64,000 bases of DNA from Methanolobus sp. WCC4 (GTDB lineage Archaea > Halobacteriota > Methanosarcinia > Methanosarcinales > Methanosarcinaceae), in NCBI RefSeq assembly GCF_038022665.1, contig NZ_CP150629.1, positions 1,098,480-1,162,479 of the forward strand, in the 5' to 3' direction. A model generated the notes under the pieces. The model did not search any database. It was given only the letters and a program-made list of their open reading frames with translations, and was not told where the DNA came from. Positions 4,383 through 45,531 of this stretch are shown one piece after another. Each line of letters begins with the position of its first letter. Positions within the stretch are counted from its first letter, which is position 1. The position numbers and the translations under genes were made by a program.

Positions 4383-6329
4383 TTATGGCTGTGATTCCAG
4401 TTCTCTGGTCCTCTCTTTTAACATGTCGACCACAGCAGGGTCCTGCAGTGTGGTCACATCCCCGGGATCCTTATTGTTGGCAATAGCTTTGAGAACCCTT
4501 CTCATGATCTTGCCACTTCTGGTCTTTGGGAGATCATCAGAGAATATTATTTGTTTTGGACGTGCAAAGGGTCCAATGTTCTTCACAGCATATTGGTTGA
4601 GTTCTTTTTTGAGTTCCTCATTTTCCTCTTCACCCAGCTTTAGTGTGACATAGCAGTAGATGACCTCTCCCTTGAGTTCATCCTTCTTTCCTACTACGCC
4701 GGCTTCGGCAACAGATGGATGTGATACCATGATGCTCTCGAACTCTGCACTTCCGATACGATGTCCTGCAACTTTGATGACATCGTCAACACGACCTATG
4801 ATCCAGAAATAACCATCATCATCCCTTTTTGCACCATCGCCTGCGAAATATGTCTTTTTATCCCATTTGCTCCAGTATGTTTCGATGAAACGTTCCTCGT
4901 TTCCAAATACTGTACGGACCATGCTTGGCCAGGGTTCCAGTATGGCCAGGACCCCATCTTCCCCCGGTGCAGTCTCGTTCCCGTTATCATCCAGAACGGC
5001 TGCTGTTATTCCGGGAAATGCCATTGTCGCACTTCCTGGTTTTGTGGTTGTGACTCCCGGAAGCGGTGATATCATTATCATACCGGTTTCGGTCTGCCAC
5101 CATGTATCGACTATGGGGCATCTTCCCATTCCGATGTTCTTATGATACCATTTCCATGCTTCCGGATTGATTGGTTCACCTACCGAACCGAGGAGCCTGA
5201 GTGATGAGATATCATGCATCTGAGTCCACGATGTTCCCCATTTCATGAATGTCCTGATGGCTGTAGGTGCGGTGTAAAGTATCGTGACCTTGTGTCTTTC
5301 GATAATGTCCCAGTACCTGTCCTTGTCAGGATAATCAGGAGCACCTTCGTAGGTGAGAAGTGTGGCACCATTGGAAAGTGGTCCGTAGACGATGTATGAG
5401 TGTCCGGTTATCCACCCGGCATCCGCTGTACACCAGTAGATGTCATCTTCCTTAAGGTCGAATACGAACTTTGACGTGGTATGAGTGGCCACCATATAAC
5501 CGCCGGTTGTGTGGACTATACCCTTTGGTGTACCTGTAGTGCCGCTGGTATACATCAGGAACAGCATATCCTCTGAGTCCATTATCTCCGGTTCACAAGA
5601 GGTAGCAGCGTCTTTCATGACATCGTGCCACCAGACATCTCTCCCCTCTTTCATGGAAATATCACTACCACTGTTCTTAACAACGATGACCCTTTCCAGA
5701 AGATCAATGGAGCTGATCCCCTCATCTACCTTGTTCTTCTGCTCAACGACCTTTCCCCTGCGTGAGTAACCGTCACAGGTTATAAGGAGTCGACTGTTGG
5801 CGTTATCGATGCGTGTGGCAAGGGAATCACCGGAGAATGCTGCAAACACTACACTATGTGGTGCTCCTATGCGGGCACATGCAAGCATTGCTATGATGAC
5901 CTCAGGTATCATTGGAAGATATATGGTAACGATCTCCCCTTTTCTGACCCCGGAATCCTTCAGGACATTCGCAAGTTTACAGACCTCATCCAGCAGTTCC
6001 TGATAGGTATATTTGCGAATCTCTCCATTCTCCCCTTCCCACAGCAGGGCTATCTTGTCTGCACGCTTCTCAAGGTTTACGTCAAGACAGTTGTAACATG
6101 CATTGAGCTTACCACCGAGGAACCATTTCGAGTGAGGAGGTTCCCATTCCAGTACTTTGTCCCATTGTTTGTACCAGTGAATATTGTTCGCATTCTGCTC
6201 CCAGAATCCTTCAGGGTCTTCTTCAGCTTTCCTGTAGATATCAGGGTCATTGGCGACAGCATTTTCTGAGAACTTTTCCGATGGTTCGAATCCATCAATA
6301 TCTTTTCGAGCTCCTGTTCTTTCTCCCAT
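4383..6329 (-). CDS. acs: Acetyl-CoA synthetase (AMP-forming)
   Basis: Activates acetate with ATP and CoA to acetyl-CoA, AMP and PPi. All core motifs of the adenylate-forming family are present: the phosphate-binding loop YTSGTTGTPKG, the hinge/A8 motif GRVDDVIKVAGHRIG and the C-terminal catalytic lysine in PKTRSGKIMRRVLK. Length is typical (about 648 aa). The frame can be extended to a TTG at 6377, but I chose the ATG at 6329, which gives MGERTGARKD and removes a 16-residue tail unlike the family. The gene converges on the ADP-forming synthetase operon, so the locus holds both energy-saving and high-affinity acetate-activating routes. Confidence 0.93.
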   Translation of the reverse strand: MGERTGARKDIDGFEPSEKFSENAVANDPDIYRKAEEDPEGFWEQNANNIHWYKQWDKVLEWEPPHSKWFLGGKLNACYNCLDVNLEKRADKIALLWEGENGEIRKYTYQELLDEVCKLANVLKDSGVRKGEIVTIYLPMIPEVIIAMLACARIGAPHSVVFAAFSGDSLATRIDNANSRLLITCDGYSRRGKVVEQKNKVDEGISSIDLLERVIVVKNSGSDISMKEGRDVWWHDVMKDAATSCEPEIMDSEDMLFLMYTSGTTGTPKGIVHTTGGYMVATHTTSKFVFDLKEDDIYWCTADAGWITGHSYIVYGPLSNGATLLTYEGAPDYPDKDRYWDIIERHKVTILYTAPTAIRTFMKWGTSWTQMHDISSLRLLGSVGEPINPEAWKWYHKNIGMGRCPIVDTWWQTETGMIMISPLPGVTTTKPGSATMAFPGITAAVLDDNGNETAPGEDGVLAILEPWPSMVRTVFGNEERFIETYWSKWDKKTYFAGDGAKRDDDGYFWIIGRVDDVIKVAGHRIGSAEFESIMVSHPSVAEAGVVGKKDELKGEVIYCYVTLKLGEEENEELKKELNQYAVKNIGPFARPKQIIFSDDLPKTRSGKIMRRVLKAIANNKDPGDVTTLQDPAVVDMLKERTRELESQP

Positions 6330-6429
6330 AGTAGCACCCGCATGAACGAAAAGGTCACTGTTATAGAATTGTATCAATTTGTTTATATCGTTTGTTATGC
6401 ATCCCGGCTGCGACAGAGGAGACAGTTAA

Positions 6430-6491
6430 CCGGTAATTAAGAGGAGAATAAAAAAGAAAGTATCAGGGATACTATATCTATACCCTGATCA
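6430..6491 (-). terminator. Hairpin terminator behind the flavoprotein gene
   Basis: Read on the minus strand, an inverted repeat (ATCAGGG pairing with CCCTGAT) follows the flavoprotein stop codon. It is followed by a T-rich stretch (CTTTCTTTTTTATTC). This is the pattern of an intrinsic terminator. Confidence 0.55.
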
Positions 6492-9214: not shown

Positions 9215-9643
9215 TCAGAGGTAGTTCTCAAGCACTTTGAGGATACTCTCTATATCCCTTTCAAGTGCTTCAATTGACATTTCCATCATGAGATTGATGA
9301 TACCCTCGTCACCGAATGTCCTGAAATCGGTCTTCAGTCCGAGGACCGGAATTCCCTTTGCATAAGCATATCCCATCTCCCATGCGGTTCCTGAATCCAC
9401 GTCACTGCCACCATCCAGTACCGCCAGTACTATGTCGGACCCGTCAACACCACGAACATCGTTCTCAAAGATGTTTCTCTGCCTGTCCTCCAGTCGACTG
9501 GACTCAGTGTCGGCACCATCCTCCTGTGGCAGGAATACCGAAAAGCCCATTTCCACCAACCTGTCCCTGAGCATTACGTTAAAGTCCCTTTCTGCCTGTG
9601 AAAAAAGAGGGCCTGCCAAGTAGATCTGTTTTTTTCCGTCCAT
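9215..9643 (-). CDS. Nucleoside 2-deoxyribosyltransferase-like protein
   Basis: The 142-aa protein fits the nucleoside 2-deoxyribosyltransferase family. It has the N-terminal YLAGPLFSQAERDFN, the central VDGSDIVLAVLDGGSDVDSG with its acidic pair, and GTAWEMGYAYAKG with the catalytic-type glutamate. The family exchanges or hydrolyses the base of deoxynucleosides or deoxynucleotides; members of the related DNPH1 type hydrolyse dNMPs. Substrate choice cannot be read from sequence. The gene converges on AMMECR1 with a 50-base gap. Confidence 0.85.
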   Translation of the reverse strand: MDGKKQIYLAGPLFSQAERDFNVMLRDRLVEMGFSVFLPQEDGADTESSRLEDRQRNIFENDVRGVDGSDIVLAVLDGGSDVDSGTAWEMGYAYAKGIPVLGLKTDFRTFGDEGIINLMMEMSIEALERDIESILKVLENYL

Positions 9644-9760
9644 TATTATTCCATCCCTTGAATTAAGAGAGATGTATATTGTCAGTCTGGTTAATAATAG
9701 TGTTGTAAGCGGGGTGAAAATAATTCAAAAAAAGTTTTGAGAAACAATATGTCAGGAACC

Positions 9761-12460
9761 TTATCTGGGATTGATCGGTATCTCAAAGGTAAAATTGCTA
9801 CCCTTTCCAGGTTCACTCTTCACTGTTATGTTTCCACCATGAAGCTCTATGAATTTCTTTGTAAGAGCAAGTCCGATCCCGGTACCGCTATATTTGCGTG
9901 CAAAGGACCCATCTATCTGCACGAAGGGTTTGAAAATGCTTTCGATCTTATCTTTTTCGATACCGATCCCTGTATCAATGACGGATACCTGTAGTTTATC
10001 TCCAACATTCTTTGTTTCAATGACAACGGACCCTCCATGATCCGTGAATTTGAGGGCATTGTCAAGAAGATTATGCATTATCTGGGTCAGTTTATACTCA
10101 TCAGCATAGAATACATCAATGGAATCTTTTCTCTTAAAGGACAATTTGATATCCCTGCTGGAAGCCCTCTTTGACATCAACATCATAGTCTCGCTGACAA
10201 AATCCCCGGTTGAGAGGCACTTGAAGGATATATTTTCCAGGTCGTCAATCTCGTACTTAGAGAGGTCCAGTAGTCGGTTGATCAGATCCAATAGGTTCTT
10301 ACCACTGTTGTTTATGTACCTTACGTAGTTCTTTTGTGATTCACTCAAACCTTCCGAAGACTGGTAGAGCAATACGTCTGAGAATCCGATAACTGCTGTT
10401 AAAGGTGTCCTGAGCTCATGTGACATGTTCTTCATGAACTCGCTCTTGATGCGATTTGCATCATCTGATATGATCTTGGAATAAAGCAAAGCTTCCTCTG
10501 CTTTCACCCTTGGTGTGATATCCATCTGCGTACCAACGAAACGCTGAGGAACCCTACTTCTACCTGTCTCAAATGGCTTTCCTTTCAGTGATACCCATAT
10601 CCATTCCCCTGAAGCATGCTTTATCCTGCAGTCAAGATGGAACTCATCTGCCAGTTCGATCGCTTTATCAAATTCAGACATGACTATCTTCCTGTCCTCC
10701 GGATGGATGCGGTCGAAATAGAAGTCCAGATCAGTTGAATAAGTTTCATCATCCATACCAAGTGTAGCGATCATTTGCGGACTCTGATACATTATACTTT
10801 TATTGAGGTCCAGTTCCCATAGACCCAATCCAGAGGTCTCCACTGCAAGTCCCAGCCTTTCCTCACTATCTTTCAGGTTCTTTTCGAACATCTTCCTTTC
10901 AGTGATATCCCCGTTAGTACCTATCATTTTCACAGGTACGCCCTTTTTATCATGTTTCACTATTCCATGGGCTTCTATGAACCGAACATTTCCATCAGCA
11001 CAGATAATACGGAATTCCGAGTTGAACTCTTCCTTTCCTATAACAGCATTATCTATCGCATTTAAGACCTCATTCAGGTCTTCGGGATGGATCATTTCTT
11101 TCCAGGATCCAAAATCTCCGGTGAATTCAGATGGTTCCGTTCCATATATCTCATGTAGCTGCCTGTCCCATATCAGGGTACTTGTAAGCATATCCCACTC
11201 CCATATGCCTATCTTTGCTGCTCTTGTAGCAAGGGTCAATCTCTGGGTCACAGAACGCAGCATCTCTTCTGCGTTGATCCTGTCGGTGATGTCGGTGTGT
11301 ATGGCCAGAAACCCATCGTCGGAAAGTTTAACAGCATCCACTGCCCAGTATCCCTTACAACCATTCTTTCTGACAAAAGGTAACTCTGCTGTAAGACTCC
11401 CTTTCTCTTTAAGCTCATCAGATAATTTTAAAATATGGTCCTTTTCTTCGGCCGGTAAGACATCAAGGACATTCATGGATAATAATTCGTTTCTGGAGTA
11501 ACTGGTGATATTACAGAAAGCTCGATTCACATCAATGTAATATCCTTCTTTGTCAGTTACGATAAGGCCACTTGGTGAGTTATCGACATAGCTGCGGAAC
11601 TTTCTTTCGCTTTCCCTTAATGCTTCCTCAGCTTTCCTTCTCTCCATTTCGGCTGCTGCCCTTGCAGCAAAACTGTTAAGGATGGAATGGGTACTCGTTG
11701 AATGCTCCATAGGCTTTTCATCAAGGATAACAAGCAGACCTATCATTCTTCCTTCACTATCTTTCAGAGGAGTACCCCAATAGCTTTCAGCATTCACCTT
11801 TTTGAGTATCGTATCCCCCGGGAAAAGTGTCTGGATCCCCGACGGATAGAAACAGGGTTCACCAGATGTAAGATCCTCACATGGAGTTCCAATTATATCA
11901 TAAGTGAAATTGTCGGTATGATCGCTATCATCCCACACTGCAACAGTGTGTGCTGTTCTGAGTTCATCGGGGTCCATAGATGCAAGCACTACGGTACGTA
12001 TATTCTGAGAAACTGCTATCTGACGAACAAGGATGCTGAATATATCCTCTTCCGGAGAAACGGCCGTTTCAGCAATTATTCTCAGTGTTTCCTCGGTACT
12101 CTTGCGCTCTGTAATATCAAGGGCTGTGAATGTAACACCATATGAATGATCAGCCTGGTCTATAGGGGTCGAAGATAGCAGGATATCTATAATGCTTCCG
12201 TCTTTTCTCTCCCATTTCGTTTCAACGGTTCCCGTGCCTTTTTCAGCTATCTGTTGATACTTTTCTTTTCCCACATACTCATATTCTTTAGAATTAGGGT
12301 ACAATATGCGGGAACTGGATCCCACAAGTTCATCGTAGCTGTATCCTGTTATTTCGCATAGTCGGGAATTCACTTCTGTAAGTATACGGTTTTTCACAAC
12401 GCCTATTCCAATAGGTGCTGCCCGAAAAACACTTTCCAGTTTTTCCTTACTTTTTACCAT
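9761..12460 (-). CDS. PAS/GAF sensor histidine kinase
   Basis: An 899-aa cytoplasmic signal transducer with no membrane helix. Domains in order: PAS (about 8-118), GAF (about 125-270), PAS (285-395), two PAS_3/PAC modules (405-522 and 535-652), HisKA (672-740) and HATPase_c (785-897). The phospho-acceptor is His681 in NMSHELRTPL. The N box is NLLDNALKFT and the G boxes are DTGIGI and GTGIGLAL. No response regulator gene is adjacent, as is common for methanogen kinases of this type. The ligand is unknown. It is divergent from the PQQ-type dehydrogenase gene, with about 180 bases between. Confidence 0.92.
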   Translation of the reverse strand: MVKSKEKLESVFRAAPIGIGVVKNRILTEVNSRLCEITGYSYDELVGSSSRILYPNSKEYEYVGKEKYQQIAEKGTGTVETKWERKDGSIIDILLSSTPIDQADHSYGVTFTALDITERKSTEETLRIIAETAVSPEEDIFSILVRQIAVSQNIRTVVLASMDPDELRTAHTVAVWDDSDHTDNFTYDIIGTPCEDLTSGEPCFYPSGIQTLFPGDTILKKVNAESYWGTPLKDSEGRMIGLLVILDEKPMEHSTSTHSILNSFAARAAAEMERRKAEEALRESERKFRSYVDNSPSGLIVTDKEGYYIDVNRAFCNITSYSRNELLSMNVLDVLPAEEKDHILKLSDELKEKGSLTAELPFVRKNGCKGYWAVDAVKLSDDGFLAIHTDITDRINAEEMLRSVTQRLTLATRAAKIGIWEWDMLTSTLIWDRQLHEIYGTEPSEFTGDFGSWKEMIHPEDLNEVLNAIDNAVIGKEEFNSEFRIICADGNVRFIEAHGIVKHDKKGVPVKMIGTNGDITERKMFEKNLKDSEERLGLAVETSGLGLWELDLNKSIMYQSPQMIATLGMDDETYSTDLDFYFDRIHPEDRKIVMSEFDKAIELADEFHLDCRIKHASGEWIWVSLKGKPFETGRSRVPQRFVGTQMDITPRVKAEEALLYSKIISDDANRIKSEFMKNMSHELRTPLTAVIGFSDVLLYQSSEGLSESQKNYVRYINNSGKNLLDLINRLLDLSKYEIDDLENISFKCLSTGDFVSETMMLMSKRASSRDIKLSFKRKDSIDVFYADEYKLTQIMHNLLDNALKFTDHGGSVVIETKNVGDKLQVSVIDTGIGIEKDKIESIFKPFVQIDGSFARKYSGTGIGLALTKKFIELHGGNITVKSEPGKGSNFTFEIPINPR

Positions 12461-37503: not shown

Positions 37504-38859
37504 TCATTTGCCGGAAACTATGTCCGAGGCTTCCTTGTTGAGCTTTCTGTGTGTGAATTTCTTAGCGTCAGGTCCGGCATAGTCTGCGACTTTATCACCA
37601 TTACCTACTAAGATGTACTTGTAGATGAGAAGTCCTTCCATTCCCACAGGACCACGTGCATGGATCTTATTGGTACTGATGCCCACTTCCGCACCTTTTC
37701 CATAGCGGAACCCATCTGCGAATCTTGTGGATGCATTGAGCATGACGCTGGATGAGTCTATGAGGTCGGTGAACTTTTTCTTTTTGAGCTCGTTCTCAGT
37801 AATGATACCATCTGTGTGATGGGAACCGTAGTGGTTGATGTGCTCGATAGCTTCTTCCATTGACTCTACTATCTTTATGGAGAGTGTCAGGTCATTGTAC
37901 TCGGTCTTCCAGTCGTCCTCTGTTGCTCTCAGGATACTCTTGAGGAAGTCGATCTCTTCAAGTATCTTAAAGGACCCTTCGTCACAGCGCATCTCCACAC
38001 CAGCTTCGTCGTACATCCTTGCCATCTTTGGCAGGAATTTATTGGCGATACTCCTGTTAATCAGAAGTGTCTCCATTGCATTACATACGGCAGGGTACTG
38101 TACCTTTGAGTCAAAACAGACCTCGTATGCTTTTGAGAGGTCCGCCTCATCGTCCACATATACGTGGCAGATACCGTCTGCGTGTCCGAGAACAGGAATC
38201 TTTGTGTTGTCCTGCATGTATTTGACGAATGCATTGGATCCTCTTGGGATGAGCAGGTCGATGTATGCATCCATACTGAGGATGTCGTTGACCTCTTCCC
38301 TTGTTTCCATTAACTGGAATGCACCTTTCGGCATTCCGTTTACGGATTCTGCAGCCTCGTTCAGGAGGTCGAAGATCATACGGTTGGAATTGAGTGCTTC
38401 GCTTCCTCCCTTGAATACGGTTGAATTGCCGCTTTTAAGACAGAGGGACATTACCTGTGGCACCACATCAGGACGTGCTTCAAATATGACACCGATAAGT
38501 CCGATCGGACAGCTTACCTGATAGAGCTCGAGTCCCTTATCAAGTTCAAGGGCATCTATGGTCTTACCTACAGGGTCTTCGAGATCGATGACATCACGGA
38601 TACCGTCTATCATTCCGCTTATCTTGCTGTCACTGACCTTGAGCCTGTCCACAAGTGCCTGTGAGAGTTCGCCTTTCCTCTTCAGTTTCTCTGCGGTCTC
38701 AACGTCCTTCTGGTTTGCTTCGAGTATCTTATCGCGATTATTGTCAAGTGCCTGTGCCATTGCCTCAAGAGCCTTGTTCTTAGTGTCCGTGCTGACACTT
38801 GCAAGGATAATGGATGCCTTCTTGGCCTCAATGACCTTTTCTTCAATTTCAGTAACCAT
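37504..38859 (-). CDS. proA: Glutamate-5-semialdehyde dehydrogenase
   Basis: Reduces glutamyl-5-phosphate with NADPH for proline synthesis. The protein is about 451 aa of the aldehyde dehydrogenase superfamily: the NAD(P) region CPIGLIGVIFEARPDV, the catalytic cysteine in VQYPAVCNAMETLL and the C-terminal GPVGMEGLLIYKYI. A GTG four codons upstream (38871) is part of the ribosome-binding sequence AGGTGATT, so ATG 38859 is taken. The first part of this gene and its upstream sequence are duplicated in decayed form near 39450. Confidence 0.95.
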   Translation of the reverse strand: MVTEIEEKVIEAKKASIILASVSTDTKNKALEAMAQALDNNRDKILEANQKDVETAEKLKRKGELSQALVDRLKVSDSKISGMIDGIRDVIDLEDPVGKTIDALELDKGLELYQVSCPIGLIGVIFEARPDVVPQVMSLCLKSGNSTVFKGGSEALNSNRMIFDLLNEAAESVNGMPKGAFQLMETREEVNDILSMDAYIDLLIPRGSNAFVKYMQDNTKIPVLGHADGICHVYVDDEADLSKAYEVCFDSKVQYPAVCNAMETLLINRSIANKFLPKMARMYDEAGVEMRCDEGSFKILEEIDFLKSILRATEDDWKTEYNDLTLSIKIVESMEEAIEHINHYGSHHTDGIITENELKKKKFTDLIDSSSVMLNASTRFADGFRYGKGAEVGISTNKIHARGPVGMEGLLIYKYILVGNGDKVADYAGPDAKKFTHRKLNKEASDIVSGK

Positions 38860-39081
38860 GAAATGAATCACCTGGGTTTCTTAAAAGAGTGATGTTGGAT
38901 CAATTATATAGTATAGAGGTATTGCACATAGTTCTTTGGTTTTATATTTGTCGATTATTCTGTGAATGTCATCATATGTATCTGTTGAACCTTTATCCGG
39001 TTATGTATCTAATTCCAGATGATCATGTCATCCATCCTGTAATGTGTCCCTGCCAGGTCCTAAATTGGGACACACCTATTA

Positions 39082-40928: not shown

Positions 40929-40961
40929 GAGCTGTTTTCTTTATTTAATATGCTATCTTCA

Positions 40962-40991
40962 ATTCTAAGTTAAGGATTCTTTACTTAGAGT
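40962..40991. repeat. 30-bp palindromic repeat, copy A
   Basis: Pattern ATTCTAAGTTAAGG-ATTC-TTTACTTAGAGT, an imperfect hairpin. Copies B and C lie at 41002-41031 and 43322-43351. Copies A and C also share the preceding ATGCTATCTTYAAT sequence. Confidence 0.75.
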
Positions 40992-41001
40992 TACAGTTTA
41001 T

Positions 41002-41031
41002 ATTCTAAGCAAAGGTTCCTTTACTTAGAAT
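41002..41031. repeat. 30-bp palindromic repeat, copy B
   Basis: Pattern ATTCTAAGCAAAGGTTCC followed by TTTACTTAGAAT, the best-preserved hairpin of the three copies. It lies ten bases after copy A. Confidence 0.75.
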
Positions 41032-41166
41032 TACCTCTGGCTTGTTAACTTATATTCTCATTCTCAAATGATTCAAGCAAATATCTGGAAGAAGCACTAA
41101 ATATTAATATAATTATATTAATCATGAAAACTTAGGACTGATTTGAATATTTATTATGGTGGATAA

Positions 41167-43041
41167 ATGGCAGATATTGGTGTCAAAAGGGGATATGAGG
41201 TCCTGCCTGACAATAGTGTAAGGTTCGGAATTAGGGTGATCAACAATAGCCCTGCCGCTATTTTAGATGTTGAGATAATTCTCGGTTATCCTGAATCTCT
41301 TTTTAAGTTGCATGATGGAAGGATCCAGAAACTTGGAAACATTCCTCCTGCAAAGGAACGTACTGCTAAATTCGTGCTCAAGCCTCTGGGCTGTGTCCAT
41401 CAGGAATATATTGGAGCAACTGTTCAGTATAACGACCATACATATGAGAAGAATCTGCTTAACATGCGCCGTAAGGAGATTCACTGTGTCTGTCCTTTCC
41501 TGCGGGCAAAGTCCATGAGTAAGGTCCAGTTTCTGCAACTTTCCTCAGCAGGACATTCAACGGAAGCAGGCCTGAACTTCGAAGGTGTTAGTTCGGAGCA
41601 GGTATTATCGTTCCTGATGCAGATCTGCACCAACCGCTTATACAAAGTGGAAGAACGCTTCGTGGACGGCGGGAAGATACTCTATCTTTCAAGTGAATCC
41701 ATTGGTGAGGATGCATATTACTTGCTGACCGTTCTGATAAAGGGGAATCAGGGACAAACTCTGGTGATGCTGCGGGCGGTATCCAATAAGGCCCATGGAT
41801 TACAGGGTTTTTTAAATGAGACCGTTTCCGAACTCAGACATCTTGTAAACACGGTAAAGTCCTCGAGGGAGATCGGTGTCATCAAACATGAGAAGGTTAT
41901 CAATATTATAGATTCAGTTGTTCAGCGCAGCAATTTTTCAGTGGATGGAAGTTCAGGTTCTGCGCATGTGCAGGAAAGCACCGTGCAGAGAAGTGAAATT
42001 ACCTCTTCCTCGGCAAAGGTCAATATTCAGGATAGTGTTGTGCAGCGCACCACTATAATAATGGATAGTGGAAAGAAGGAAGAAGAGGATGAACGCAAAG
42101 CCCTTGGAACCATTCGTCTGAGATCTGCTGAGGAAGCTGAGAGTAAGAGAATGGATGAGGTTTGGTCAAGGATAGAACGTGAGGAGCAAGAGCGTTTACA
42201 CAAAGAACAGGAAGAACAGCAAAGAAGGAAAGAGCAGGAACTCAAAGCCAGGATCGCTGAGAACAAAAGTAAAGAAAAGGTCCTATCAAGGGAACGTGAA
42301 GAACAGGGTAGAATGAAAAAAGCAGATTTCATCAACTCCATTGGCATACAATTCATAGCAATTCCTGCAGGTGAATTCATGATGGGTTCGAATGAATATG
42401 ATGAAGAGAAACCTGTTCACAAAGTAACAATTCCAAAGCCATTCCTGCTTGGTAAATATCCTGTAACTCAGAAAGAATGGTTTGCTGTGATGGGCAGCAA
42501 TCCTTCTCAATTTAAAGGTGATAACAGGCCAGTGGAGAATATTTCATGGAATGATGCACAGGAGTTTGTCAAAAGATTGAACACAAAGGAAGTTACGAAT
42601 AAGTACCGTCTGCCATCAGAGGCCGAGTGGGAGTATGCCTGCAGGGCGGGTACAAATACAAATTATTCCTTCGGAGATAGTGAATCACATATTGGGGATT
42701 ATGCATGGTATGAGGATAATTCAGGACACAAAACCCACCCAGTTGGTCAAAAGAAACCCAATCCTTGTAACCTTTATGATTTGCATGGGAATGTTTGGGA
42801 ATGGGTGCAGGATAATTGGCTTGGTTCCTATGAGGATAGTCTGAAACACGAAAAAAAGAATAAATTGATTTCCAGGTTCTTTGGTAAGAATCGGGAAAAA
42901 GATGATCTTAGTTTGCCCCGGGTCAGACGTGGCGGCGGCTGGATCAACCACGCCAGGAACTGCCGGTCAGCGACTCGCTACAACAGTGATTCGAACAACA
43001 GGTACGGCAGCATCGGTTTCCGTCTCCTCAGGGAAATGTAG
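41167..43041 (+). CDS. FGE/SUMF1 (C-type-lectin-fold) protein with coiled coil
   Basis: The 624-aa protein has an N-terminal domain of unknown fold (1-240). Three degenerate repeats with core DSVVQR follow (249-257, 269-278, 288-297), then a charged coiled coil (305-385). A formylglycine-generating-enzyme domain occupies 393-622 (PAGEFMMGSNE, LPSEAEWEYACRAGT, NLYDLHGNVWEW, RGGGWINHARNCR). Only one cysteine (Cys599) sits in the active-site segment, so sulfatase activation is unlikely and a binding role is more probable. The last 100 coding bases are about 60% G+C, far above the preceding part. They consist largely of NNY codons, as in variable regions of diversity-generating retroelements. Confidence 0.85.
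   Translation: MADIGVKRGYEVLPDNSVRFGIRVINNSPAAILDVEIILGYPESLFKLHDGRIQKLGNIPPAKERTAKFVLKPLGCVHQEYIGATVQYNDHTYEKNLLNMRRKEIHCVCPFLRAKSMSKVQFLQLSSAGHSTEAGLNFEGVSSEQVLSFLMQICTNRLYKVEERFVDGGKILYLSSESIGEDAYYLLTVLIKGNQGQTLVMLRAVSNKAHGLQGFLNETVSELRHLVNTVKSSREIGVIKHEKVINIIDSVVQRSNFSVDGSSGSAHVQESTVQRSEITSSSAKVNIQDSVVQRTTIIMDSGKKEEEDERKALGTIRLRSAEEAESKRMDEVWSRIEREEQERLHKEQEEQQRRKEQELKARIAENKSKEKVLSREREEQGRMKKADFINSIGIQFIAIPAGEFMMGSNEYDEEKPVHKVTIPKPFLLGKYPVTQKEWFAVMGSNPSQFKGDNRPVENISWNDAQEFVKRLNTKEVTNKYRLPSEAEWEYACRAGTNTNYSFGDSESHIGDYAWYEDNSGHKTHPVGQKKPNPCNLYDLHGNVWEWVQDNWLGSYEDSLKHEKKNKLISRFFGKNREKDDLSLPRVRRGGGWINHARNCRSATRYNSDSNNRYGSIGFRLLREM
42928..43026 (+). other. Candidate diversified (DGR-like variable) region
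   Basis: About 99 bases encode residues 588-620. At 14 positions (593-595, 598, 603, 605-608, 610, 611, 613-615) the codons are atc, aac, cac, aac, act, tac, aac, agt, gat, aac, aac, tac, ggc, agc. All can derive from AAC or AAT by changes at adenines only. The segment ends in GGTTTCCGTCTCCTC, a place where IMH-like ends lie in FGE-type targets. No template repeat or reverse transcriptase is in this window. The FGE family also favours such residues without DGR activity. Confidence 0.4.
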
Positions 43042-43321
43042 TCACTTTCGACTTACCTCTTTACAACTTTAATGAAGTATTTGTATGGGAACTCTGCATC
43101 TCATTCCGAACCAGTGCATGCGTAACGGCACAGGTTGGATGTGTAAAACGTTCAAATAATCCATTGCAAGAAAAAGGTATGCTCAGACTATTTTCTATCA
43201 AAAGTGATGAATGATCAGAGGGCTTCCTGGATGAGGTAATATGCAATTTGCTTACTGATACGGATGTCTGGTATACGTTTTCATTTTAATGAAATGATTC
43301 TGCATTTAAATGCTATCTTTA

Positions 43322-43351
43322 ATGCTAAGTAAAGGTTCCTCTACTTAGAAT
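43322..43351. repeat. 30-bp palindromic repeat, copy C
   Basis: Pattern ATGCTAAGTAAAGGTTCC then TCTACTTAGAAT, the same family as copies A and B on the other side of the FGE-fold gene. The preceding ATGCTATCTTTA also matches copy A. Confidence 0.75.
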
Positions 43352-43452
43352 GTCAAAGCGAATTCTAAATAAATCAGATTTACATTCAACATAAAAAAAG
43401 AGAATACTGTGTTTTTCCATCTCAAAAAAGTACAATGTCTGATAAACAGAAT

Positions 43453-43498: not shown

Positions 43499-43701
43499 GT
43501 ACTATTTGAAAAATAGTTGCATGCTCCAATATGGTTAGCAGACATATAAACACTTTCATTTCAAATAAAATTGAAGTTCAAGTGGTTATTTTCTCATGTT
43601 GATCTTTCGCTAATCACCATTCTCTGACACATGTTAGCATGTAACAGCCATCTGGATATCTTTATCAATGATCATTTTGTATGACTTGGCAGGAGATCAA
43701 C

Positions 43702-45531
43702 ATGAGCACACGCGAGTATATGCTGGGAAACGTTGCAATTGCACGCGGTATCGTTGAAGGAGGCGGGCAGGTCATATCCGGTTATCCGGGAACACCGTCA
43801 TCAGAGATCATCGGTACACTGGCAGGAATGAAAGAAAGGGATTTTTACGTAGAATGGTCGGTCAATGAGAAGGTTGCACTTGAGGTGGCTGCAGGTGCTG
43901 CAATGACCGGTGTCCGGTCAGTGGTCACAATGAAGCACGTTGGCCTCAATGTAGCAGCAGATCCGTTACTCACCCTTGCCTACACAGGTGTCAAGGGCAG
44001 CATGATCATCATCGTTGCGGACGACCCGTCATGTCATTCATCACAGAACGAGCAGGACACCCGCAGATACTCACAATTCTCACTTATACCATGTCTTGAC
44101 CCCTGCACTCCCCAGGAGGCAAAGGACATGATCCCATACGCCTTTGAATTCTCTAATAAGGTCCAGATGCCTGTTATCTTCAGGCCTACAACACGTATCT
44201 CACACGGGAAATCCGATGTGGAGCTCGGACCCGTGAATGAGACAAGGCCCGCAGCAGAATTCGTCAAGGAACTTGAAAGATGGGTCATGGTCCCGAAGAA
44301 TGCAAGGGTACAGCATCCTCATCTTCTGGAACTGCAAAAGGATATTCTCAACGAGCTTGAGAACTCACCCTGGAACTCCCTGGAACTAAGTGATGGTGCC
44401 AAGGTTGGAGTTATTGCATCTGGCATTGCTTCTGTCTATGCAAAGGAAGCCATCATCAAACAGGGTATCAATGCATCATTCCTCAAGATAGGTACCTATC
44501 CTGTTCCTGAGAACAAGATCCGTACTCTCATGGAGAACTCAGAACGTATCATCATCTTCGAGGAGATGGAGCCTGTTGTTGAGGAACAGGTCAGGATCAT
44601 AGCACAGGAGACTGGCTCGAACGTTGAGGTGATCGGCAAGCTTCAGGGTCCTGTTCCGAGAATATACGAACTGAACACTGACATCTGTTCAGACGTTCTT
44701 GCAGACGTCCTTGAACTTGAAAGGCCGGATGTTCCGGCAGAGGTTGCAGAGGACTTCGATTACGACAGGTGCAGGATCGACCTGCCCATGCGTCCGCCTG
44801 TCATGTGTCCTGGATGTTCTCACAGGTCGACTTTCCATGTCATGAAAAAGGTCTACGGTAAGGATGCTATCTTCCCGAGTGATATCGGCTGCTACACACT
44901 GGGTATCCAGAGCGGTACAGTTGACACGACACTCTGTATGGGTGGAAGTATAACCGTAGCAAGTGGGATGTATCAGGCAGGAGAAAAGAAACCGATCTGC
45001 TGTTCCATTGGTGACTCCACATTCTTCCATACGGGGATGAACGGTCTGCTCAATGCTATCTATAATAAAGCGGACATCACAGTAACTATAGTGGACAACC
45101 GCATAACCGCAATGACCGGTCATCAGCCAAATCCCGGAATGGGTAAGCTTGTAACCGGTGAGGAAACCTCAGAGGTGGATCTGGAAGCATTATGTAAGGG
45201 ACTCGGTGCAGGTTTCGTTGAAACTGCTGACCCATATGACCTCAAGCAGACAGAAGAGGTCTTCAAAAGGGCAAAAGAATACAAAGGAACATCAGTTGTC
45301 ATCACAGAACAACTCTGTGTTATCGATGCAAAACGTTCCGGAATTCGCAGAACACCATTCACAATCGATGCAGAGAAATGTACTGGTTGCAGGCTGTGTG
45401 TGAACCTTGGCTGTCCTGCAATTGAATTCGATACAAATACAAGAAAGGCATCCATCAATGCGATGTGCACCGGCTGCGGAGTATGTGCAGCTTTGTGCAA
45501 GTTCGATGCCATTACGGAGGTGAAGAAATGA
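43702..45531 (+). CDS. iorA: Indolepyruvate:ferredoxin oxidoreductase, alpha subunit
   Basis: Oxidatively decarboxylates aryl pyruvates to aryl-acetyl-CoA with ferredoxin (or the reverse, in aromatic amino-acid synthesis). About 609 aa: a pyrimidine-binding TPP domain at the N-terminus (GYPGTPSSEIIG), a TPP-pyrophosphate domain (GDSTFFHTGMNGLLNA), and a C-terminal ferredoxin domain with two Cys clusters (CTGCRLCVNLGC and CTGCGVCAALC). An upstream ATG at 43681 is in frame, but ATG 43702 with GGAGAT six bases before it is preferred. The stop overlaps the iorB start (ATGA). Confidence 0.95.
   Translation: MSTREYMLGNVAIARGIVEGGGQVISGYPGTPSSEIIGTLAGMKERDFYVEWSVNEKVALEVAAGAAMTGVRSVVTMKHVGLNVAADPLLTLAYTGVKGSMIIIVADDPSCHSSQNEQDTRRYSQFSLIPCLDPCTPQEAKDMIPYAFEFSNKVQMPVIFRPTTRISHGKSDVELGPVNETRPAAEFVKELERWVMVPKNARVQHPHLLELQKDILNELENSPWNSLELSDGAKVGVIASGIASVYAKEAIIKQGINASFLKIGTYPVPENKIRTLMENSERIIIFEEMEPVVEEQVRIIAQETGSNVEVIGKLQGPVPRIYELNTDICSDVLADVLELERPDVPAEVAEDFDYDRCRIDLPMRPPVMCPGCSHRSTFHVMKKVYGKDAIFPSDIGCYTLGIQSGTVDTTLCMGGSITVASGMYQAGEKKPICCSIGDSTFFHTGMNGLLNAIYNKADITVTIVDNRITAMTGHQPNPGMGKLVTGEETSEVDLEALCKGLGAGFVETADPYDLKQTEEVFKRAKEYKGTSVVITEQLCVIDAKRSGIRRTPFTIDAEKCTGCRLCVNLGCPAIEFDTNTRKASINAMCTGCGVCAALCKFDAITEVKK

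Follow-up and report, generated by a model that had tools for sequence, protein, structure and literature searches.

A probable orphan target gene of a lost diversity-generating retroelement in Methanolobus sp. WCC4

The gene at 41167-43041 of the window, the 64,000-nucleotide stretch of Methanolobus sp. WCC4 DNA analysed here, is on comparative sequence grounds very probably the orphan target of a lost diversity-generating retroelement (DGR), a relic with a frozen variable region (VR) and not an active target. It is homologous to, and syntenic with, the target of a complete DGR in another genome of the genus (G045). Its VR differs from the G045 template repeat (TR) with a bias toward adenines, an HRDC remnant follows it, and reverse transcriptase (RT), TR and Avd are absent from the genome. 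The sequence-only reading had proposed a DGR target here. This stands for a former target by descent, given the syntenic G045 DGR with its matching template, and falls for a current one, given the deleted core and the lack of a template copy or RT.

Table 1. Positions of the features discussed, in window coordinates
Feature	Position	Strand	Remark
proA-like flanking gene, synteny marker	37504..38871	-	Same flank in G045, G051 and 20 more genomes of the genus; name from sequence
Palindromic intergenic repeat, not a DGR part	40945..41032		Intergenic
Probable orphan target gene	41167..43041	+	Intact ORF, 624 aa
FGE-sulfatase domain, residues 396-622	42352..43032	+	Pfam PF03781, E=3.4e-46
Probable relic VR	42918..43031	+	Orthologous to the G045 VR; 82% identity to the G045 non-coding TR over 114 bases
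Invariant VR 3' end, ATCGGTTTCCGTCTCCTCAG	43012..43031	+	One mismatch to the G045 TR and VR
Retained spacer, target gene to former HRDC gene	43042..43178	+	Aligned to the G045 spacer
HRDC 5' remnant, pseudogene, ends after ~30 codons	43179..43270	+	In-frame TGA at 43212-43214; 92 bases
Deletion junction interval for the rest of HRDC, Avd, RT and TR	43271..43304		Homology to the G045 DGR stops at 43270
Palindromic intergenic repeat, not a DGR part	43305..43414		Matched past the G045 TR and in relatives lacking a DGR
iorA-like flanking gene, synteny marker	43681..45531	+	Same flank across the genus; name from sequence

The variable region and a complete DGR at the same locus

A blastn search with the window VR segment covered 112 genomes of the family and hit G045 twice, at sites separated by 2.1 kb. 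The first site is a non-coding TR (RVKRGGSWNNNARNCRSANRNNNNPDNSNNNIGFRLL); the second, the target VR, encodes the C-terminus of an FGE-domain protein of 737 residues. Between the G045 TR and its own VR, 15 of 37 adenines are changed and all 77 other positions are identical, a pattern that reads as a textbook TR-VR pair. The genes are arranged in the order proA - target - HRDC - Avd - RT - TR - iorA, with Pfam matches to HRDC (E=5.5e-21), bAvd (1.4e-19) and RVT_1 (2.5e-19), and the RT carries the DGR-type motif IPIGNLTSQ (core GNLTSQ). The window gene occupies the same proA-iorA interval as this complete DGR. The full DGR that a genome of the same genus carries at this locus, and the match of its template to the segment, allow us to conclude from these alignments that 42918-43031 descends from the variable region of a DGR. 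The invariant 3' end of the VR lies at the position of the initiation-of-mutagenic-homing sequence in DGRs, a role that we presume from other DGRs.

Downstream of the TR, G045 (L035, ~9400-9960, minus strand) has a duplicated iorA start and leader. A short iorA fragment is followed by about 0.5 kb and then by the true iorA, and this duplication beside the DGR is a scar of insertion or duplication.

The rise in G+C at the 3' end of the window gene, from which the DGR proposal had started, was confirmed. G+C peaks at 0.626 in 99 bases spanning the VR, the top value in the window (mean 0.451), and GC3 climbs to 0.77-0.79. The codons at the variable sites had been said to end in C or T, and all 13 window codons that face AAC or AAT of the G045 template do so (ATC, AAC, CAC, AAC, ACT, TAC, AAC, AGT, GAT, AAC, TAC, GGC, AGC). 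Compared with the G045 TR, the window VR differs at 13 of 37 adenines and at 8 of 77 other positions (Fisher p=0.002); these eight cannot be divided into VR drift after the loss and earlier divergence of the TR, because the ancestral TR of the window is gone.

Codon positions within the VR behaved inversely to those in the rest of the gene. At third positions, identity between the window gene and the G045 target is 82% in the VR, 58% in the N-terminal part and 49% in the FGE scaffold (p=0.001), whereas at first positions it is 68% in the VR and 81-88% elsewhere. This inversion is the product expected of changes at adenines in positions 1 and 2 of AAY codons. For the VR, synonymous divergence (dS) relative to G045 is 0.25, a value based on about 40 codons only, as against 1.16 for the N-terminus and 2.1 for the FGE scaffold. 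When whole identical codons were counted instead, the VR differed from the remainder of the gene in the same direction, but not significantly (p=0.11).

Probable loss of the DGR core

Past the stop codon of the target gene, the window aligns with G045 over 229 bases, 43042-43270 (score 68.9, versus 10.9 +/- 1.6 for shuffles). The alignment takes in the spacer and the beginning of an HRDC gene, whose stub (MLRLFSIKSDE*SEGFLDEVICNLLTDTD) matches the G045 protein (MLKIFTIKYEEKSESFPDAAMCNFLADKD) at 15 of 29 residues in one frame. Similarity to G045 resumes at 43305, there with the sequence that follows the TR; a search of the window for retained post-TR sequence gave no similarity (z=0.5). Because homology stops after the HRDC start and the genome has no RT, TR or bAvd, the DGR core appears to have been deleted.

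That no template or RT could be seen in the window had been noted correctly, and it holds for the whole genome, a single contig of 2,851,899 bases rated 99.99% complete. On this chromosome there was no RVT_1 match at E<=0.01, no match to the G045 DGR RT and no bAvd match; no TR turned up with a 42-base pattern that tolerates changes at adenines and allows up to 3 mismatches, and blastn with the VR and with the TR returned the VR itself only. Of the accessory proteins of a complete DGR, Avd is thus absent, and the HRDC gene beside the target is a stub with a stop codon. The sequence-only reading had named the lack of a template-like copy or a DGR RT as what would speak against an active DGR, and a search of the genome for a second VR copy, a DGR RT and Avd found none.

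An RT and TR acting in trans, from another replicon or a mobile element, could in principle keep the gene an active target. The gene is open, its VR looks fresh in that third positions are conserved, DGRs with remote targets are known (PMC8144416, PMC4891356), and a plasmid could lie outside the one-contig assembly that our searches covered. We nevertheless consider this very improbable, given a nearly complete genome with no RT, TR or Avd and a broken local HRDC gene. Viral contigs in IMG/VR offered no related target and one distant RT relative (35%), which also speaks against action in trans; a viral origin was rejected on the same result.

The history that we favour, loss of a DGR once present at this locus, would start from the ancestral order target gene - HRDC - Avd - RT - TR - iorA, as kept in G045. 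In copying the TR, the RT would have put random bases where the template has adenines; exchange of the VR for this copy would have randomised the ligand-facing loops of the FGE/C-type-lectin domain. A deletion in the window lineage would have taken most of HRDC and all of Avd, RT and TR, and the HRDC stub would then have gained its in-frame stop, the deletion preceding the stop mutation in the order that we infer. The target gene would have stayed open, with one frozen VR sequence changing by ordinary mutation only.

Two further features had been mentioned in the sequence-only reading, and neither serves as support for a DGR. The repeats flanking the gene were rejected as DGR parts: the palindromic repeat TCTAAGTAAAGG...CCTTTACTTAGA (40961-41032 and 43322-43351) is common to the proA-iorA interval of several relatives, including relatives without a DGR. 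The hairpin suggested 3' of the stop codon was set aside, as folding of the downstream DNA did not exceed the level of shuffled sequence (z=-0.27).

Related loci and the target protein

An FGE gene is present in four of the 23 proA-iorA intervals examined in the genus, those of the window, G045, G051 and G054. The G051 gene is VR-like, with differences from the G045 TR at 22 of 33 adenines and 12 of 69 other positions, and its genome has no DGR RT; in the G054 gene no adenine bias is left. The four FGE-bearing genomes are scattered on the tree of the two flanking genes, which suggests repeated loss, transfer, or both. The complete DGR of the locus may have been inherited or brought in, both being compatible with this distribution. 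The stretch after the VR gene in G051 resembles that after the TR in G045 (z=55). We did not take this as proof of VR-TR recombination, since the part nearest iorA is largely common to DGR-less genomes.

The same rarity and scatter would fit a target gene that was acquired or copied alone and never stood beside a DGR here. We regard this as very improbable: order and spacing of the target gene and the beginning of HRDC agree with those of the intact G045 DGR, so at least the target and the core start were once together. The HRDC remnant refutes the strict form of this explanation; the target may still have arrived jointly with part of the core. Least credible of all is an ordinary FGE-family gene whose C-terminus came to look like a VR through convergence in composition (Asn/Arg/Ser-rich loops): the RGGSW...CRSA...GFR frame is indeed common to FGE paralogues, but five ordinary paralogues of the same genome differ from the G045 TR at 35-52% of non-adenine sites (window, 12%) and match it at 29-50% of third positions (window, 79%), and the syntenic complete DGR and HRDC remnant already refute this account.

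Orphan VRs and template pairs were also seen at other places in the family. G058 holds a further orphan VR at another locus (15 of 33 adenines and 5 of 69 other positions differ from the G045 TR), and its RTs are of group II type only. Two genomes of another genus contain TR-VR pairs with adenine-only differences: G006 (L037, 9048-9161 and 8599-8712; 21 of 29 adenines and 0 of 82 others) and G007 (L044, TR ~6379-6489, VR ~6055-6165; 16 of 29 and 0 of 82). With the G045 DGR RT as query, only group II-type RTs were found in G006 and none in G007, and no RT lay near either pair. These pairs point to a loss of very recent date, a divergent RT or an RT acting in trans. By eye, the N-terminus (GKKFGIVIGTNEYSDSKIPNLRFAQKDAKEIKNIL) of the VR protein of G006 (L037, 6973-8721) resembles a caspase-like domain fused to the variable FGE domain, for which proposed conflict systems offer a comparison (PMC7159879).

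The protein encoded by the window gene consists of an unassigned N-terminal domain, a charged linker and a C-terminal domain of the FGE/C-type-lectin fold, at whose C-terminus the VR sits. The fold assigned by the sequence-only reading was borne out by the Pfam FGE-sulfatase match (Table 1) and by a sequence search in which TvpA, the Treponema denticola DGR variable protein (2y3c), was the top solved relative (E=6.5e-31). A predicted structure of the domain was too poor (mean pLDDT 56) and was left out of the argument. The first 300 residues are 81% identical to those of the G045 target. The N-terminal domain has paralogues of 39-58% identity in the same genome (G000:C1:443586-444524, 441910-442815 and 725499-726380); because none coincides with the six FGE genes of the genome, this domain appears to be an independent module.

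The scaffold of the gene shows strong purifying selection in comparison with G045 (dN/dS ~0.1), a signal that may mostly be older than the DGR loss. The protein presumably binds a ligand, and it may still be made and useful. We tentatively entertain a domesticated binder, in which the last VR was fixed after loss of the machinery and kept for its one useful specificity, as a possible though rather unlikely outcome. If true, such a frozen binder would be nature's counterpart of a matured antibody that has been made constant.

Comparison with known systems

A complete DGR works through an RT that makes a cDNA in which template adenines are randomised and which then replaces the VR; Avd and HRDC serve it as accessory proteins (PMC10053308, PMC4891356). 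In the literature collection that we searched, no paper joined DGRs with Methanolobus. The related archaeal pair described here presents the same locus as a complete hypermutation cassette in one genome and as a stripped target gene in the other. One can thus follow directly what becomes of a DGR target after machinery loss, whether it decays or keeps a single fixed specificity. The case is also a warning against taking a VR-like signature by itself as proof of an active DGR.

Leftover targets after DGR loss are already known, and the window adds an archaeal case supported by synteny. Treponema denticola strains without the core DGR keep leftover target genes (Nimkulrat et al. 2016, PMC4891356). 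As in the window, their VRs differ from the TR of a relative mostly at adenines, their genomes have no RT or TR, and the system involves an HRDC accessory gene and a C-terminal FGE-type variable domain (TvpA). Unlike them, the window case is archaeal, the complete DGR of its relative lies at the same locus, and the HRDC stub fixes the cut point. In the degenerate DGR loci of Thiohalocapsa PB-PSB1 the machinery is likewise missing or pseudogenised (PMC10907252), whereas each class there keeps one complete locus in the genome and the window genome is without any RT. The archaeal DGRs with C-type-lectin-fold variable proteins share with the window gene an archaeal host and a C-terminal lectin-fold VR (PMC5006420); those were described as complete, in contrast to the probable relic of a methanogen presented here.
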